Assembly: GCA_019638285.1 (NCBI GenBank)
Contig: JAHBUB010000010.1
Location: 1-64,000 of the forward strand
DNA: 64,000 nt
Reading direction: 5' to 3'
DNA from: Cyclobacteriaceae bacterium
GTDB lineage: Bacteria > Bacteroidota > Bacteroidia > Cytophagales > Cyclobacteriaceae
Under the pieces are notes generated by a model. That model saw nothing but the letters and a program-made list of their open reading frames with translations. It was not told where the DNA came from and made no database searches. Below are positions 7,841 through 63,627 of the stretch, piece by piece (within the stretch, counting starts at the first letter, position 1; each line of letters opens with the position of its first letter). A program made the position numbers and the translations under genes.

Positions 7841-9231
7841 ATCAATACGATACGGTTTACTTTCTGGGTGTAGGTGGCATCGGAATGAGCGCTTTGGCAC
7901 GATGGTTCAACAGGCAGGGTATGTTTGTGGCTGGATATGATCGGACATCCACTCCTTTGACGAAAGAATTGGAAAAGGAGGGAGTAAAAATCCACTTTGA
8001 GGATGATGTTGCATTGATTCCTTCACAAGTGGATAATGACAAAACCTTATTTGTCTATACACCGGCTATTCCAAAAGATCATAAAGAATATAATTACTTA
8101 AAAGGAAAGGGTTATACAATTTTAAAGAGGTCTGAGGTTTTAGGGCTTATCACAAAGTCACACAAAACAATAGCGGTCGCAGGCACACATGGTAAAACCA
8201 CCACTTCTTCGCTAATCACCCACATTTTAAAGGTGGCAGGCGTAAATATGGTTGCCTTTTTGGGAGGAGTGATAACCAATTATGCATCCAATCTGGTTTC
8301 TGAAGGAGAAGCAGGGGAAAATACTGTTGTTGTGGTAGAAGCGGATGAGTTTGATAGATCATTTTTGAGGTTATTTCCTGATATTGCTGTCATTACTTCT
8401 GTGGATGCAGATCATCTGGATATCTATGGGAATCATCAGGAATTGATCAAGTCATTCACTGACTTTACTAAACAGATCAATAAAGGGGGATTGCTCGTAA
8501 AGCATGAATCAATTCGCGTCATCGACAATGAGTTGGATGGAGTGGAGGTTAATACTTATGGCATGAACCGGGGACAATTTTTTGCCAGTCGAATAATTCC
8601 GCTTGGGCGGGATGGATTTTTTGAATTCAATCTCATTGGCTTTGCCTCAGAGATAGAAAAAATTAAACTTGGCGTCCCTGGTTTTCATAATATGGAAAAT
8701 GCAATCGCTGCTGTCATTGTAGCGAAGCATTTAGGAGTAAATGATGCATCCATTAAGGAGGCATTGAATTCTTTTACAGGCGTGAAAAGACGCTTTGAAT
8801 TTATTATTAAGCGTGACGATCTCATCTATGTGGATGACTATGCGCATCACCCAACAGAAATAACAGCATTTCTGTCTTCTTTACGAGCCATGTATCCTGA
8901 AAAGAAGATCACAGCGATATTTCAACCGCATTTATATTCTCGCACGCGGGATTTTGCGGATGAGTTTTCAAGGAGTTTGAGTATTGCAGATGAGGTGTTG
9001 CTCATGGATTTGTACCCTGCCCGAGAGCAACCAATCCCTGGAGTTTCATCAGATATGCTTTTTGGTGCTATTTCAAGTGCTGTTAAAGTAAGGTGTACAA
9101 AAAAGGACGTAGTGCAAAAGTTGGAAGACATGGATGTGGAGGTGATTGCCACGATCGGGGCAGGAGACATTGATACTTGTGTGGGGCCAATTAAAGAATT
9201 GTTGGAAAATAAATATCAAAGACAATCATGA
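7831..9231 (+). CDS. murC: UDP-N-acetylmuramate:L-alanine ligase MurC
   Basis: Cytoplasmic Mur ligase that adds the first amino acid, L-alanine, to UDP-MurNAc. It has 466 residues. Motifs: FLGVGGIGMSALA at the N-terminus, the ATP loop AGTHGKTTTSS, VEADEFDRSF, DDYAHHPTEI and FQPHLYSRT, all characteristic of MurC. The start is a GTG that overlaps murG by 10 bases. No D-Ala-D-Ala ligase follows, unlike in many Proteobacteria; ftsQ comes directly, with a four-base overlap. Confidence 0.97.
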   Translation: MQLNQYDTVYFLGVGGIGMSALARWFNRQGMFVAGYDRTSTPLTKELEKEGVKIHFEDDVALIPSQVDNDKTLFVYTPAIPKDHKEYNYLKGKGYTILKRSEVLGLITKSHKTIAVAGTHGKTTTSSLITHILKVAGVNMVAFLGGVITNYASNLVSEGEAGENTVVVVEADEFDRSFLRLFPDIAVITSVDADHLDIYGNHQELIKSFTDFTKQINKGGLLVKHESIRVIDNELDGVEVNTYGMNRGQFFASRIIPLGRDGFFEFNLIGFASEIEKIKLGVPGFHNMENAIAAVIVAKHLGVNDASIKEALNSFTGVKRRFEFIIKRDDLIYVDDYAHHPTEITAFLSSLRAMYPEKKITAIFQPHLYSRTRDFADEFSRSLSIADEVLLMDLYPAREQPIPGVSSDMLFGAISSAVKVRCTKKDVVQKLEDMDVEVIATIGAGDIDTCVGPIKELLENKYQRQS

Positions 9232-9992
9232 AGCTTAAGTGGAACATGCGTACTGAGGCGAAAATAACGATTGCTATAGCTGGGTTATTCCTATTGATTG
9301 CATTCGGTGAACGCAAGCAAAGTGGAACAGTATGCAAGGACATTGTGGTGGATATGGAAAATACGAATGAAAACCACTTTCTGGAGGAAGCTGATATATT
9401 GGAGATAATCGATAACAGTGGTCAAACCATTATTGGAAAAAATATTGAGGAAATTAATTTACGTGCACTGGAAAATAAGCTGGAGATGGATAGGCACATC
9501 AGCAGAGCCGAAATATTTGGTGATGTAAAGGGTAACCTAACGGTGAATGTGACATTGAGAAGACCCATAGCCCGGTTGGTGAGAACGGATGGTCCCGATG
9601 CCTACGTGGCAGAAGATGGTAAGGTGATGGAGACCTCCGAGAAATACTCAGCACGCATTATTCTGGTAAGTGGCGATATCGTCAAAAAACTTATTAACAC
9701 GGGTGATTTGAATGCTTTGCCCGAAGGATTGGAGTTAATGGCAATGATTGAATTTGTAAATAAGGACAAGTTCTGGAAAGCACAGGTAGCTCAATTGGAT
9801 TTTAATAAATCAGGTAAGGTATTTATCTACCCTCAGGTAACAGGTCAGATAGTTGAGTTTGGATTGCCAGAAAACATTGAAGAGAAATTCAGAAAACTTA
9901 TGATTTTCTATAAAGAGATATTACCGCAGATGGGTTGGACAAAGTATGATAGAGTAAATATAGAATATGAAGGACAAGTAATCGCTGAGTAG
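9228..9992 (+). CDS. ftsQ: FtsQ/DivIB-type cell division protein
   Basis: Bitopic divisome protein linking the early cytoplasmic ring to the septal synthases. It has 254 residues: a short cytoplasmic tail, one hydrophobic segment at about 13-27, then a periplasmic POTRA-like region at about 40-110 (ending near LRRPIARLV) and a FtsQ beta domain. Sequence identity in this family is low. The call rests on topology, size and position between murC and ftsA. The ATG overlaps the murC stop. The 105 bases downstream are AT-rich and contain short repeats, so this is the first sizeable gap in the cluster. Confidence 0.9.
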   Translation: MKLKWNMRTEAKITIAIAGLFLLIAFGERKQSGTVCKDIVVDMENTNENHFLEEADILEIIDNSGQTIIGKNIEEINLRALENKLEMDRHISRAEIFGDVKGNLTVNVTLRRPIARLVRTDGPDAYVAEDGKVMETSEKYSARIILVSGDIVKKLINTGDLNALPEGLELMAMIEFVNKDKFWKAQVAQLDFNKSGKVFIYPQVTGQIVEFGLPENIEEKFRKLMIFYKEILPQMGWTKYDRVNIEYEGQVIAE

Positions 9993-10001
9993 TAAATAGT
10001 A

Positions 10002-10075
10002 GTTAGTCTTGAGTATGCTACCGACTAAATATTAAATACTAGGGACTAAAAACTAAGGACTAAAAATAACAACCA
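10002..10075. repeat. AT-rich short repeats between ftsQ and ftsA
   Basis: The heptamer GACTAAA occurs at 10023-10029, 10044-10050 and 10058-10064, and an inverted relative (TTAGTC) lies near 10011. The segment may fold into weak AT-rich hairpins. It is the only gap longer than about 35 bases in the dcw cluster, so it could hold a promoter or a processing site for ftsA-ftsZ. I see no TAnnTTTG box in it. No function is assigned. Confidence 0.5.
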
Positions 10076-10097: not shown

Positions 10098-11393
10098 ATG
10101 GAAAAGGAGAAAATAGTAGTAGGACTCGACATTGGCACAACCAAGATTTGTGCAATTGTGGGGCGCAAAAATGACTTTGGTAAACTTGAAGTGCTAGGCA
10201 TGGGTAAGGCAGAATCTGAGGGTGTAATAAAAGGCATTGTTACCAATATTGACAAAACAGTATTTGCCATTGAAAAGGCAATTAAGGAAGCCAGTGATAT
10301 GGCTGGCATAGATGTAGGGGTAGTAAATGTGGGTATTGCAGGGCAGCACATTCGCAGTTCCATTCACCATGGCGGCATCACGCGTACCACAAAGGATGAT
10401 GAAATCAGCATCGAAGATGTGAATCGCCTTACCGAAGACATGTATCGCATAGTTATTCCACCAGGCAGCGAGATTATCCATGTAATGCCTCAAGATTACA
10501 TGGTGGATTACGAGGAAGATATAAAAGATCCAGTAGGCATGTCGGGTGTAAAGTTGGAGGCAGATTTTCATATCATCACTGCTCAAACAAGTGCGATCAA
10601 TAATATCAATAAATGCGTGCGCAGAGGAAATCTTGAAATTGAAGATTTAATATTAGAACCTTTGGCATCAAGCTTGGCAGTGCTCAGCGAGGAAGAAAAA
10701 GAAGCAGGTGTATGTTTGATTGATATTGGTGGCGGTACTACCGATGTCGCTATTTTTTATGATAGCATCATTCGCCATACGGCAGTTATTCCTTTCGGAG
10801 GAAATATTCTTACTACCGATATTCAGCATGGTCTAATGGTAATGGCCAAACAGGCAGAACAATTAAAAACACGTTTTGGAAAAGCCATTGCAGAAGAGGC
10901 AAGCCCAAATGAAATTGTTTCTATCCCAGGTATACGCAACAGAACTGCCAAAGAGATTTCTGTTAAAAACCTATCGCACATTATCCAAGCGCGTATGGAA
11001 GAGGTCATTGAGATGGCACACGGTGAAATAATAAACTCTGGTTTTGAAAACCGACTGGCAGGAGGTATTGTCATTACCGGTGGAGGTGCTCAGTTGAGTT
11101 GCCTGAAGCAACTGGTAGAATATATGACAGGTATGGATACACGCATTGGATATCCAAACGAACACCTGGGCAAGAGCAAGATTGAGGCAGTAAAGAGCCC
11201 TATGTACGCTACCGCAGTTGGCCTGGTACTATCAGGATTTCGCTCTCTGGATGAGCGGGATGAGCGCTACAAGGAAGCCAGGGTTGTCAAAGGAAAAGCA
11301 AAGAAAGTTACTTCATCAGATTTTTTCACCAACATTCTTAATAAAACAAAGGGATTGTTGATTGATGATCTGGATGGTAAAAATGAATACTAA
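10098..11393 (+). CDS. ftsA: cell division protein FtsA
   Basis: Actin-like ATPase that tethers FtsZ to the membrane and recruits later divisome proteins. It has 431 residues. The N-terminal phosphate-1 motif is GLDIGTTKICAIVG, phosphate-2 is LIDIGGGTTDVAIF at about 208-221, and the adenosine motif is IVITGGGAQLSCL at about 325. The SHS2/1C insertion lies between about 85 and 165. The C-terminus contains FFTNILNKTKGLLID, which fits the amphipathic membrane-targeting helix. ATG start. The ftsZ start follows 30 bases after the stop, consistent with co-transcription. Confidence 0.97.
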   Translation: MEKEKIVVGLDIGTTKICAIVGRKNDFGKLEVLGMGKAESEGVIKGIVTNIDKTVFAIEKAIKEASDMAGIDVGVVNVGIAGQHIRSSIHHGGITRTTKDDEISIEDVNRLTEDMYRIVIPPGSEIIHVMPQDYMVDYEEDIKDPVGMSGVKLEADFHIITAQTSAINNINKCVRRGNLEIEDLILEPLASSLAVLSEEEKEAGVCLIDIGGGTTDVAIFYDSIIRHTAVIPFGGNILTTDIQHGLMVMAKQAEQLKTRFGKAIAEEASPNEIVSIPGIRNRTAKEISVKNLSHIIQARMEEVIEMAHGEIINSGFENRLAGGIVITGGGAQLSCLKQLVEYMTGMDTRIGYPNEHLGKSKIEAVKSPMYATAVGLVLSGFRSLDERDERYKEARVVKGKAKKVTSSDFFTNILNKTKGLLIDDLDGKNEY

Positions 11394-60146: not shown

Positions 60147-60232
60147 AGAGAAATTGGCCGGATTTAATGCGGCAGTATAGGCGCGTTGAAAGTAATGAGA
60201 GGTACCATTGAAATCAAGTACTGAGTAGCTAT

Positions 60233-62386
60233 TTACAGCATTGGTTTTGAAGACAGCTCCATTCCCAACTGTAAAATCATAGTGTATCCAGATAGGTCAG
60301 TCCATGAAGTAATGGTGGCATCATTGGCACCGCTTAGTTTTGTAGCATCCAACCACAGTACCAAGGAGGTGGTTCCGTCAGTGGCACCCACTCCTGCTGG
60401 GCCCGTGTTGCCCAAGATCACAGAGCCTGTTCCTATAGTAGGGAATGTTCCAGCGCAGCCTGCTCCTATACAACTGATAGTAAATGATGAACAAACCTGA
60501 TTAATGGTGCCACTGTTTGAAAACGTGATGGTGCTTCCTGCTCCATTTTGCAAAATGGTAGAGCCGGTACCACATAAGGTGGCATCTGTATGATCAATAA
60601 TGATGTCGTCAGATGAAGTAGAGTTGGTGTTGATGATGGTAATGCTATTGCCCGTTAATACAATATCATCCAATGTGCTGAGGATAGAACCTGCCTCTGC
60701 CTCCAGATAGCCTGTATTCACGAGACTCGATCCTGTAGTGAGTGTTCCACCGCTGGCAATCTCTGTATAGCCTCCGATCATCGTTTCTATGCCAGTTATT
60801 GATAGGGTGCCCTCAATGCGAATGTCTCCTGTTTGATAGAACATGGAAATGTTGGAGGCAACGAAAGGGCCAATATTGCTTTTCCCGAGATCATCGGGTT
60901 TCATGCCTGCATAGCCATTGTCTGCTACATTATCTACTGTAATTGTATGTCCTGCATGGATTACCACGTTGTCTCCTCTACCTGGAAACACACCTGCTGG
61001 TAGTGCGCCAGTCGAGCCATCCGAGCTCAGGCTCCAGGAGGTATTGGCTTCCCATGTGCCACTGGCAATAGAGTAGTAGGTGTTGACCACATCGGTGCTC
61101 AGGGTGAAGCGGGTGCCATTGGCTATTTGTGTAACCCCTGCAAACTGATAGATATTTCCGCTCACATGGGTAGCCCCGGCAATGGGTGTTTCGTCAGCAA
61201 ATGAATTGTCATTGTTTGTGTCTACCAGCAGACGAAGGTCTGCAGGGGTAATGGTACCAAATCCCGTAAGGTCAAAACGAATATCTATTGCTCCAACGTC
61301 CACAGCAGTTCCTGAAGCATTCACTTCGTTCACCCGCCATACCCTGGAAAGTCTTGAGACGATTCCGGTAGGAACATCCGTGGTGGTTAATGTGGTTTTT
61401 GGTTGTCCATCGTGCCCCCAAAATAGAAACTTATTATTGGTAAGATTAGTAGGGTTAAGAATACGTACGATGCCGGTTCCCTGTGCATCGTTGTGAAGGT
61501 TGGAGGCATCTATTCTACCAATACTCGCCACATCAAAATCATAATCGCCATTGGCTGGATCGTCCATGGTGTATAAATCATTCGCGCCCAATGTTACATT
61601 GTACTTGGCGGCCAGATAGTTTTGAACAATGATCATCTGTGCATCATTGAGTGCGGTGTAATACACAATCATTTCACCCACATCTGCTGTGGGAAATTCG
61701 CCACCACCGCTATATTTTCCTGAGAAGAAAGTCTGTGTGGGCAGTGCACTATTTGCTGAGTTGCGTTGGGCATTGACACCTCCATTGAGATAGGTCTGCA
61801 TGCCATTGGTCGTGTTTCTTCTATAGCGCGCCCCGCCTATATTATTAGTACTTGCCACAAGGCCACTGGCTACACCTCCTCCTGTGCCTCCGTCACTGGA
61901 AGAAATAAATACCTTAGAAGCGCTCCATGGATAGACAACAAATGTTCCGTCAGAGTTCTGAAACCTGATTAGCGACTGATATTCGGTTCCGTTTGCCACT
62001 ACAAAAAAAGTAATGTTGTCAACACCCGGCCCGGAAAACGAGGAGGTGAAGAATTGTGAACTGGAACCTGTATAACGAATTATTGGTCTACCATTTAATG
62101 CAGCAGAGGTAGCAGTCGTAGGTCTGTTCCCCGCTGTTGCTTGAGAAAGATTATTTCCATATCCGGATTGGTCCCCCCAAGCACTCACCACGCCTCCCGA
62201 GGAAGTTACTCCTGTATCACCTCTCCACCACGCATGCAAAGTGGAAGCGCCATCGGCTGCGCCAACCCCGCCTGGGCCAGTTTGAGAGTAGCCAACCTGG
62301 GGAAATAGGCAGCAAGCCCATGCCAACAGAATTAATTTTAGTGATTTGATGCTTAAGCCCAAATTGGGTAGAGAAGTCATCTTCAT
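60233..62386 (-). CDS. N-terminal part of the frameshifted T9SS secreted protein
   Basis: If the frameshift near 60285 is real, this is the translated product: 717 residues ending in an out-of-frame tail (TMILQLGMELSSKPML). It has the signal peptide, the first LamG-like domain, the first YLAAKYN module and the G8-like region but no sorting domain, so it would be exported to the periplasm yet not handled by the T9SS. Start ATG 62386 or 62380. See the entry for the whole gene. Confidence 0.6.
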   Translation of the reverse strand: MKMTSLPNLGLSIKSLKLILLAWACCLFPQVGYSQTGPGGVGAADGASTLHAWWRGDTGVTSSGGVVSAWGDQSGYGNNLSQATAGNRPTTATSAALNGRPIIRYTGSSSQFFTSSFSGPGVDNITFFVVANGTEYQSLIRFQNSDGTFVVYPWSASKVFISSSDGGTGGGVASGLVASTNNIGGARYRRNTTNGMQTYLNGGVNAQRNSANSALPTQTFFSGKYSGGGEFPTADVGEMIVYYTALNDAQMIIVQNYLAAKYNVTLGANDLYTMDDPANGDYDFDVASIGRIDASNLHNDAQGTGIVRILNPTNLTNNKFLFWGHDGQPKTTLTTTDVPTGIVSRLSRVWRVNEVNASGTAVDVGAIDIRFDLTGFGTITPADLRLLVDTNNDNSFADETPIAGATHVSGNIYQFAGVTQIANGTRFTLSTDVVNTYYSIASGTWEANTSWSLSSDGSTGALPAGVFPGRGDNVVIHAGHTITVDNVADNGYAGMKPDDLGKSNIGPFVASNISMFYQTGDIRIEGTLSITGIETMIGGYTEIASGGTLTTGSSLVNTGYLEAEAGSILSTLDDIVLTGNSITIINTNSTSSDDIIIDHTDATLCGTGSTILQNGAGSTITFSNSGTINQVCSSFTISCIGAGCAGTFPTIGTGSVILGNTGPAGVGATDGTTSLVLWLDATKLSGANDATITSWTDLSGYTMILQLGMELSSKPML

Positions 62387-62435
62387 ACAGCCTGGAATTA
62401 ACAAACAATTTAATCTTTAAAGGTACAGCCTTTTT

Positions 62436-62477
62436 ACTACCATGCGGGTAAGGTAGTTGTACTATTTTTCTGATAGT
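62436..62477. repeat. two short hairpins upstream of the T9SS type A gene
   Basis: ACTACC / GGTAGT (62436-62457, six pairs) and ACTAT / ATAGT (62461-62477). They lie between the gene start at 62386 and the 21-base repeat array. A near-match to the -7 box (TACCTTTA, minus strand, 62418-62425) also lies here. Function unclear. Confidence 0.35.
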
Positions 62478-62496
62478 AGTAATATAACATGGCGCC

Positions 62497-62758
62497 TGAC
62501 TGAGTAAAATGGGGACATAGTACCGCAGATTCAGGGGATGGTAGCGCAGCATCAGGACATGGCACCGTAGGTTCAGCGTCTGACTGCGTAGGTAGAAAAG
62601 ATGACAGCGCATTTTCTGCGACTGACTGCGCACAAACAAAACCTGTCACCGAAACTTCCGCGGATGACACCGTACCTCCAAGACCTGACAGCGTAGCTTC
62701 TGCGTATGACACCGTCAGTTTAGGACCTACCACCGAGGATTTGACACTGATTGACCGG
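62497..62758. repeat. array of 13 degenerate 21-base repeats in strict phase
   Basis: The 10-base core TGACASCGYA (+ strand) occurs at 62497, 62518, 62539, 62560, 62581, 62602, 62623, 62644, 62665, 62686, 62707, 62728 and 62749, always exactly 21 bases apart with no indel. The best copies are TGACACCGTA (62665) and TGACAGCGTA (62686); the outer ones are weaker. The 11 bases between cores are less conserved and tend to end in TTCTGCG or similar. On the minus strand alternate units begin with CGC or TCY, so a 42-base super-period may exist. All frames give seven-residue repeats without stops, but no start, ribosome site or known repeat protein. I do not recognise the family. Confidence 0.8.
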
Positions 62759-63003
62759 TCGTTCTGATGCTTTAAAAAAAAAGTTAAAATATTTTAGAAG
62801 ATTTTTCTGAATTATGAAACCTTTTGATTAAGGAATTCCGTATTAAAAGTATGTATAACAATGTAAACTTTTACAAGTCATGTCACATGTAAAAAACGCA
62901 GACGTCTACTCTAGGTTAGTAGGAACATGCACCGGGCCTGCCTGCGGTAGGCAGGTACGGAGGTAAGTATAACCCCGGTCGCCAGACCCTCCAGCTTAAA
63001 GCA
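62759..63003. other. intergenic region between the repeat array and the 63004 gene
   Basis: AT-rich up to about 62900, with no gene seen. From about 62923 the frame of the following gene is open without a start codon, and the palindrome at 62937-62955 lies within it. Confidence 0.5.
62937..62955. repeat. REP-like palindrome
   Basis: CCTGCCT / AGGCAGG, seven pairs with loop GCGGT. Palindromes built on CCTGCC/GGCAGG are common as dispersed repeats in Bacteroidota genomes. It lies about 50 bases before the 63004 start codon, inside a reading frame that is open from 62923. Confidence 0.6.
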
Positions 63004-63627
63004 ATGAGAGCTTTACTCACAGAAGTACAAAGTTCATTGCAAGATGTTTCACAAAAACGGAATGCCCTGAGTGGTGTTACCAACGAAAGGACAAAGGCGC
63101 ACAAAGACCTTGACCCTCTCATCGGTCGGATCATTGGCACTTTTAAGTCTTCGCAGATTGCTGGCGATACGCTTGCCAATGTTCGCTACTACACCCGTCT
63201 GGTCAACGGGAGAATGAAAGCGGGCAGTAACAGGCCTGCAGTAGCCAGTGAGAACAATGAGGTGGAGTCGTTGATCAAACGCCCGCAGACGCAGCAAAGT
63301 TATGTGGTCAAAGCCTTCAACTTTATGCGGTTGGCGCAGTTGATCGAGAAGGTTCCAGGCTATGCGACTGCTGCTGCGGATCTGCAACCTGCTGCCTTGA
63401 TGAAAGAGGCGGAGAGGCTGATGGCGCTCAATGTGTCTTGGTCCGATGCAAAAGTAGCACTCGTCAATGCACGCATCCAACGCGATACCTTGTTGTACAA
63501 AGGTGTTGATTCGTTGGTTAGCAATGCGATGGCAGTCAAAAACTACTTACGCGTGGAATTTGGACCTCAAAGTCTACAGGCCGCACAACTGTCTGAACTA
63601 AGTTTCACTAAACGTAAAATCAGATGA
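63004..63627 (+). CDS. unrecognised helical protein, possibly 5'-truncated
   Basis: 207 residues, predicted mostly alpha-helical, with no signal peptide, membrane segment or motif I recognise. The coding sequence looks clearly richer in G and C than its neighbours, which suggests transfer. The in-frame sequence before the ATG is open back to a TAG at 62920 and reads YNPGRQTLQLKA just before the Met, which looks like coding sequence; there is no ATG, GTG or TTG in that stretch, and a REP-like palindrome interrupts it. So the gene may have lost its original start. A strong terminator follows. Confidence 0.6.
   Translation: MRALLTEVQSSLQDVSQKRNALSGVTNERTKAHKDLDPLIGRIIGTFKSSQIAGDTLANVRYYTRLVNGRMKAGSNRPAVASENNEVESLIKRPQTQQSYVVKAFNFMRLAQLIEKVPGYATAAADLQPAALMKEAERLMALNVSWSDAKVALVNARIQRDTLLYKGVDSLVSNAMAVKNYLRVEFGPQSLQAAQLSELSFTKRKIR

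Follow-up and report, generated by a model that had tools for sequence, protein, structure and literature searches.

Borgs are extrachromosomal elements of archaea. Their tandem direct repeats evolve rapidly, according to the part of the source cited here (PMC9879509). At the type II plasmid centromere parC, every ParR dimer occupies a single iteron, as stated in the cited section of PMC5016525. The minisatellite MITE BrickBuilt of Porphyromonas gingivalis is described, in the cited portion of PMC4596501, as 23-nt intergenic tandem repeats found at 19 loci. Here, we compare with these systems a tandem array in 64,000 nucleotides of a Cyclobacteriaceae bacterium (contig JAHBUB010000010.1; hereafter, the window).

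A non-coding array in constant register

The array lies at positions 62497 to 62758 of the forward strand and consists of some 12 to 13 units of 21 bases, of two alternating types (A and B), kept in a constant 21-base register. From 62497 onward one unit starts every 21 bases, 12 of them being clear and the final one ragged. Self-match over this region was 0.502 at lag 21, 0.595 at lag 42, and 0.442 at lag 63, against 0.19 and 0.18 at the neighboring lags 20 and 22, showing that the exact phase described in the initial annotation is real. When stretches of 262 bases were compared, this was the strongest periodicity of the whole window; at lags 21 and 42, the best other stretch reached 0.419 and 0.409, respectively, and the maximum for the remaining lags from 5 to 60 in the rest of the window was 0.452. 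Tandem Repeats Finder detected merely three copies (62513 to 62576). The two alternating unit types imply that the natural unit is of 42 bases, and the 21 bases initially proposed as the unit are thus retained as a register but give way to 42 as the better unit.

Placed without gaps, the window array showed 55 to 62% identity to its orthologues. With the one in L181 the identity was 62% over 252 bases, and the next best shifts were -42, -84, and -126, ahead of any odd multiple of 21. In a MAFFT alignment with L181 and L182, the array contained one 1-base gap, located in the ragged last unit, whereas several gaps were found in the far better conserved leader (62759 to 62879, forward strand), which lies between the array and the downstream gene and is conserved in both orthologues. 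The core TGACASCGYA, on which the repeat was first defined, is present in the window array but is limited to it, its orthologues, and one orphan array in genome G040; it is not a general motif. When up to 3 mismatches were allowed, a genome-wide search for the core pair returned 8 matches, all within the window array, compared with 1 for the reversed-pattern control.

The initial annotation had also considered a decayed coding repeat. A coding origin, decayed or active, would give seven residues per 21-bp unit, and one frame of the window array is indeed open (a 98-aa ORF at 62437 to 62733). However, both orthologues have stops in that frame, and stops interrupt five of the six frames in the window array and all six in both relatives. 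The changes between orthologous arrays showed no codon phase, with mismatches by position of 30/31/35 and 40/37/37 (P = 0.80 and 0.92, respectively). Furthermore, the arrays of 22, 43, and 44 bases described below cannot encode an in-frame seven-residue unit, which excludes codon phase. As judged from these sequences, a coding repeat is refuted for the window array, and the 22-, 43-, and 44-base periods refute it as a general explanation; we regard it as extremely improbable.

The partner gene encodes an unnamed family of proteins

On one side of the array is a divergent LamG/T9SS-type gene (60233 to 62404, reverse strand), to which the array had first been linked. This gene is a neighbor and not the partner: its copy in G040 has neither array nor partner gene beside it, and the gene conserved as the partner lies on the opposite side. 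Arrays follow this unnamed family of ~240 aa, and a LamG promoter was rejected as their general link. In the window, the LamG/T9SS gene is split into two frames at 60147 to 60232; the matching frame is open over ~1,248 aa in G060 and G040.

The partner gene spans 62880 to 63627 on the forward strand, is interrupted at 62937 to 62955, and is open in the remainder (62956 to 63627). The interruption is a 19-nt palindromic insertion, unassigned to a strand, that shifts the frame and is absent from L181 and L182. Despite its mobile-repeat look, it is present as a single copy genome-wide (up to 1 mismatch).

The arrays of relatives were found by pattern, DNA, and profile searches in G040, G060, G012, G064, G028, G074, and G041, and these searches also retrieved coding periodicity. 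A 21-base periodicity occurs in coding DNA remote from the partner gene in L027, where it corresponds to an open coiled-coil frame. In G060, G028, G041, G074, and the window, the array adjoins one gene family, whose G060 and G028 proteins share 26% identity (E = 1e-11).

We found nothing above the cutoff for this family in Pfam (3, then 16 members) or NCBIfam (2 members). One distant member weakly matched Pfam DUF6261 below the cutoff (E = 0.0025), a match found in none of the 16 members. The sequence search of the PDB gave no match with an E value below 0.4, and Foldseek against the PDB gave none at E ≤ 0.001 (best E = 0.41). The AlphaFold model of the orthologue L182, obtained with 33 further sequences (pLDDT, 87.8; pTM, 0.76), predicts two halves with the same order of helices, the long central ones spanning residues 33 to 84 and 166 to 201. 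A weak second BLAST hit (E = 0.016) connects the halves, whose likeness is one of helix order and BLAST. The proteins are mostly basic (median pI of 9.7, range of 7.7 to 10.2, charge of about +12; n = 82). Of 34 members, 4 gave PADLOC matches to PtuB (best E = 3.3e-4), and a further scan of 10 of these 34, which may not include the 4 matching ones, returned no PtuB. On these comparisons, the gene-array module appears to match no known family tested here (Pfam, NCBIfam, PDB, and Rfam), and the initial remark that no named family fits holds as far as these searches extend. Since the scanned proteins have no annotation above the cutoff in Pfam or NCBIfam, the module is likely missed by current annotation.

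Gene and array form a two-part module

Gene and array co-occur across distant relatives as a two-part module. We analyzed 84 distinct copies of the gene, taken from family profile matches of which part was fetched, after discarding duplicates and copies shorter than 450 bases. They came from the loci of the relatives and from 33 partly overlapping loci of Cyclobacteriaceae, Flammeovirgaceae, and other Cytophagales MAGs. An array (score of at least 0.44) was found within 1.6 kb in 67 of the 84 copies, upstream of the gene in 50 and downstream in 17. The best periods were 21 (37 arrays), 42 (20), 22 (4), 43 (4), and 44 (2), showing that the spacing is not 21 bases in every relative. Both 1-kb flanks were examined in the 73 copies with at least 700 bases on each side: 62 passed 0.45 at lag 21, 22, 42, 43, or 44, these copies being related and thus non-independent, and 11 had no array at the threshold. 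The same criterion was passed by only 1 of 106 segments taken from the same loci at a distance of more than 1.5 kb and by none of 62 window segments. When the five loci of discovery were excluded, 57 of 68 copies passed. With the lag left open between 10 and 47 (score of at least 0.45), the top lag was 21, 22, 42, 43, or 44 in 53 of 57 cases, the remaining 4 being 14 (three times) and 31 (once).

The genome of the window has ten copies, and all ten long copies pass 0.44, with L138 and L141 doing so on 7-bp sub-repeats. Among the loci obtained by searches of the phylum and the order, 17 were examined. Four of these belonged to the 84 copies, and 10 of the 13 new ones had a 21/42 array. Five of these ten array-bearing distant loci belong to other orders of the same class, and L235, also one of these, is a fragment of the gene. 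L213 and L221, which come from a single genome that does not belong to the class, have 8-bp repeats, and the array status of L219 is ambiguous. Among four more loci beyond the 84 (G020 and G050), arrays were present in three, at lag 44 in two of them and at lag 21 in the third, and the other is a partial gene without one.

Some periodicities departed from this pattern. Tandem repeats of 7 or 8 bp replace or subdivide the 21-bp period at L138, L141, L168, L213, and L221. In L150 (G055:C1), a segment ~350 to 600 from the start, nearly 3 kb from the gene copy, has a 21-bp periodicity of 0.786. This lone positive of the 106 controls may be either a coding repeat or a further orphan array. In the window, a 7-bp-based tandem repeat at 10023 to 10066 separates an ORF ending at 9992 from one starting at 10098, both of which look like cell-division genes.

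Distribution, gain and loss, and orphan arrays

The gene was found in 9 of 395 genomes of the phylum and 12 of 390 genomes of the order (E ≤ 1e-8, its own genome counted). In G040, the LamG gene follows the preceding gene, which we take to be M20-peptidase-like, by ~150 to 170 bases, and array and partner gene are both absent. The corresponding site of G060 holds ~1.35 kb of gene plus array. Array and gene are therefore jointly present or absent at this compared site, where no counterpart exists for ~88 bases of the gap in G040, making gain and loss indistinguishable.

Elsewhere, G040 has a related orphan array between convergent genes (L037:1020-1355), with the palindrome TTGGTGAAGAACACCAA on both sides (L037:987-1003 and 1360-1376); this is the one array at which a palindrome was noticed on either side. 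Orphan arrays, without the gene in the fetched stretch, were found in G040 (L101), G012 (L102), and G064 (L106). The 21-bp arrays of L102 (~8110 to 8450) and L106 (~9070 to 9277) are highly uniform, and the gene beside each of them is presumably amidohydrolase-like. In viral contigs, 15 pattern matches yielded 0 confirmed relatives, and plasmids and phages had none (one query each, E of 1e-3). Phage or plasmid cargo was rejected on these searches.

Private sequences with a shared period

The unit sequences of the arrays are private and fast evolving, while their period is nearly fixed. A same-strand array match of at least 0.6 over 63 bases was found in 0.69 of the 16 pairs above 80% protein identity (11/16), in 0.46 of the 26 pairs at 70 to 80%, in 0.17 of the 42 pairs at 60 to 70%, and in less than 1% of the pairs below 50%. 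Each array has its own unit sequence, rarely recognizable below ~60% protein identity, and the 21-22 period is still found in members from other orders of the class. No k-mer or motif common to the arrays was found and unrelated arrays were dissimilar, so a common unit of the MITE/BrickBuilt kind was rejected. A CRISPR array was also discarded, since units are contiguous and similar throughout, with no unique spacers (as judged from the repeats alone).

Constrained spacing and a two-helical-turn arrangement, both put forward initially, are supported by the periods of 21 or 22 bases (or 43, i.e., 21 + 22) across relatives. Among the 67 arrays, with 773 units, an out-of-phase edge unit was seen in 9, and 8 of these were shifted by at most 2 bases (shifts of up to 8 were sought). 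The two-unit match exceeded the one-unit match in 42 of 63 arrays, indicating a super-unit. Gaps were counted in 39 pairs with more than 60% protein identity, of which 9 had no array columns in alignment. The arrays had 0 to 4 gaps, which result partly from changes in unit number and edge effects and so give no clean evidence. Long gap-free stretches were limited to L129/L130 (336 columns) and L158/L210 (141 columns).

These data bear on whether the arrays are a by-product, i.e., minisatellites of selfish or slippage origin that accompany the gene and have an inherited, functionless period. Such an origin would be compatible with the quick turnover of the arrays, the near-identical units of some (L136, L172, and L114), the patchy distribution, the empty site of G040, and the orphan arrays. 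Nevertheless, it is rather unlikely: the period holds despite the replacement of the sequence, other top lags being rare, the association with one protein family is enduring, and orthologous arrays match when placed without gaps, the MAFFT alignment having most of its gaps in the better conserved leader.

Possible action of the array at the DNA or the RNA level

A simple hairpin-plus-T scan identified a gene-sense terminator between the gene and the downstream array in 10 of 17 cases (0.6 expected from shuffles) and between the upstream array and the gene in 2 of 50 (1.7 expected). In the window, the interval between array and gene contains a promoter-like element, GAAAC-N18-CGTA (62816 to 62842), which is also present in the orthologues and, we presume, resembles an ECF sigma promoter. 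When N13-20 was allowed, this element was found upstream of 10 of the 84 copies, 35 to 125 bases before the matched gene start, compared with 2 of 681 background segments. The terminators before downstream arrays and the promoter-like element in the leader suggest that the array is mostly outside the transcript of the gene, which favors a role as DNA.

Alternatively, the module could work at the RNA level, with an independently transcribed array whose 21-22-nt units the protein would bind, count, or cleave, in the way ToxN acts on ToxI RNA. Many repeats adjoin a single gene for a mostly basic protein, as would be expected, and related arrays are alike in the same orientation with respect to the gene, even if orthology would give that anyway. 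Yet terminators between upstream arrays and the gene do not exceed chance, and downstream arrays are often past one. The window array folds no better than shuffles on either strand (z = 0.53 and 0.68; pseudoknot-free model), and no clear strand bias in folding was seen among the 67 arrays (difference of 0.018, standard error of 0.011 kcal/mol per nt). Rfam gave no match at the gathering score in L100, L101, and L104 and nothing inside the window array at E ≤ 1, the one subthreshold hit nearby being outside the array. We thus consider action through RNA unlikely.

Regarding the DNA itself, column conservation concentrates at the harmonics of 21 bp (z = 3.2) and 10.5 bp (z = 2.5), and A/T content is depleted at 10.5 bp (0.051 versus 0.097; z = -3.95), values to be read with caution because ten harmonics were tested in each case. 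The under-representation of A/T at 10.5 bp argues against curved, nucleosome-like wrapping and fits straight DNA; intrinsic curvature was accordingly rejected. A 7-bp sub-period is slight in A/T and G/T content and absent from column conservation.

A candidate DNA-level assembly platform

We propose that the array, as the non-coding part of a gene-array module subject to gain and loss, provides a platform for assembly on the DNA, with a phase of two helical turns and units that are probably read two at a time, a reading that has in our view an even chance of being right. The module consists of the gene for a mostly basic, helical, two-halved protein of ~240 aa and its own array of 21-22-bp units, usually located less than 1 kb from the gene. 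From the sequences, binding of the array by the partner protein is predicted as the most economical reading; whereas the module itself is observed, we infer this contact between protein and array DNA. The protein, or a complex containing it, would assemble on the array as double-stranded DNA, where units two helical turns apart would put the sites on the same face. Its two halves, or paired subunits, may read two units together, giving the super-unit of 42 to 44 bp. Array sequence and protein specificity would drift jointly, and copies within one genome would thereby remain distinct. The likely outcome would be control of the gene itself or anchoring of the DNA concerned, as with iteron-type sites.

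More tentatively, these modules might represent a novel bacterial class of self-paired genes and satellites, in which the protein assembles on a private array and recognizes its spacing, of two helical turns with units taken in pairs, more than any particular sequence. Copies sharing a chromosome would then co-evolve into separate pairs, acting as independent anchors or switches and spreading horizontally across Bacteroidota. Spacing that is kept while the array sequence is replaced offers a direct test of selection on helical phase, and the many natural protein-array pairs make specificity comparable within one genome.

Comparison with known systems

In the literature searched, whose scope left out most subscription papers, we found no description of a module made of a gene and a private array. 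We know of no single partner protein family for the tandem repeats of Borgs. The likeness between these and the arrays described here is that both are rapidly evolving tandem direct repeats, as far as the cited part of the Borg study goes (PMC9879509).

As in parC/ParR, where the cited section places single-locus tandem repeats upstream of an operon with a small protein gene (PMC5016525), repeats adjoin a gene. In contrast, the module has about ten copies in the chromosome studied here, with unit sequences private to each copy, and no recurring second gene was seen between gene and array. As regards a motor ATPase gene such as that of parMRC operons, in the 67 arrays this interval contained no ATG-initiated ORF of at least 110 aa, and the neighbors on the far side (unannotated ORFs) varied in orientation and distance. 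No ParR match was found in sequence (nothing above the Pfam cutoff in the 3 and 16 members) or in fold (the best Foldseek E value being the 0.41 given above).

In type III toxin-antitoxin systems of the ToxIN type, tandem nucleotide repeats also adjoin a single protein gene, according to the cited portion of PMC8860590. Relative to ToxIN as described there, the module lacks the order array-terminator-gene, the ToxIN-type terminator before the gene being at the chance level reported above, has no detected RNA structure, and has arrays downstream of the gene as well. The partner proteins had no matching Pfam or PDB family corresponding to a ToxN-like endoribonuclease.

BrickBuilt resembles the module in being made of short intergenic tandem repeats in a Bacteroidota genome (PMC4596501). 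The cited part of that source describes one common unit sequence, leader and tail segments, and indels of 0 to 6%, and names no partner gene, whereas the module combines private array sequences with a conserved partner gene.
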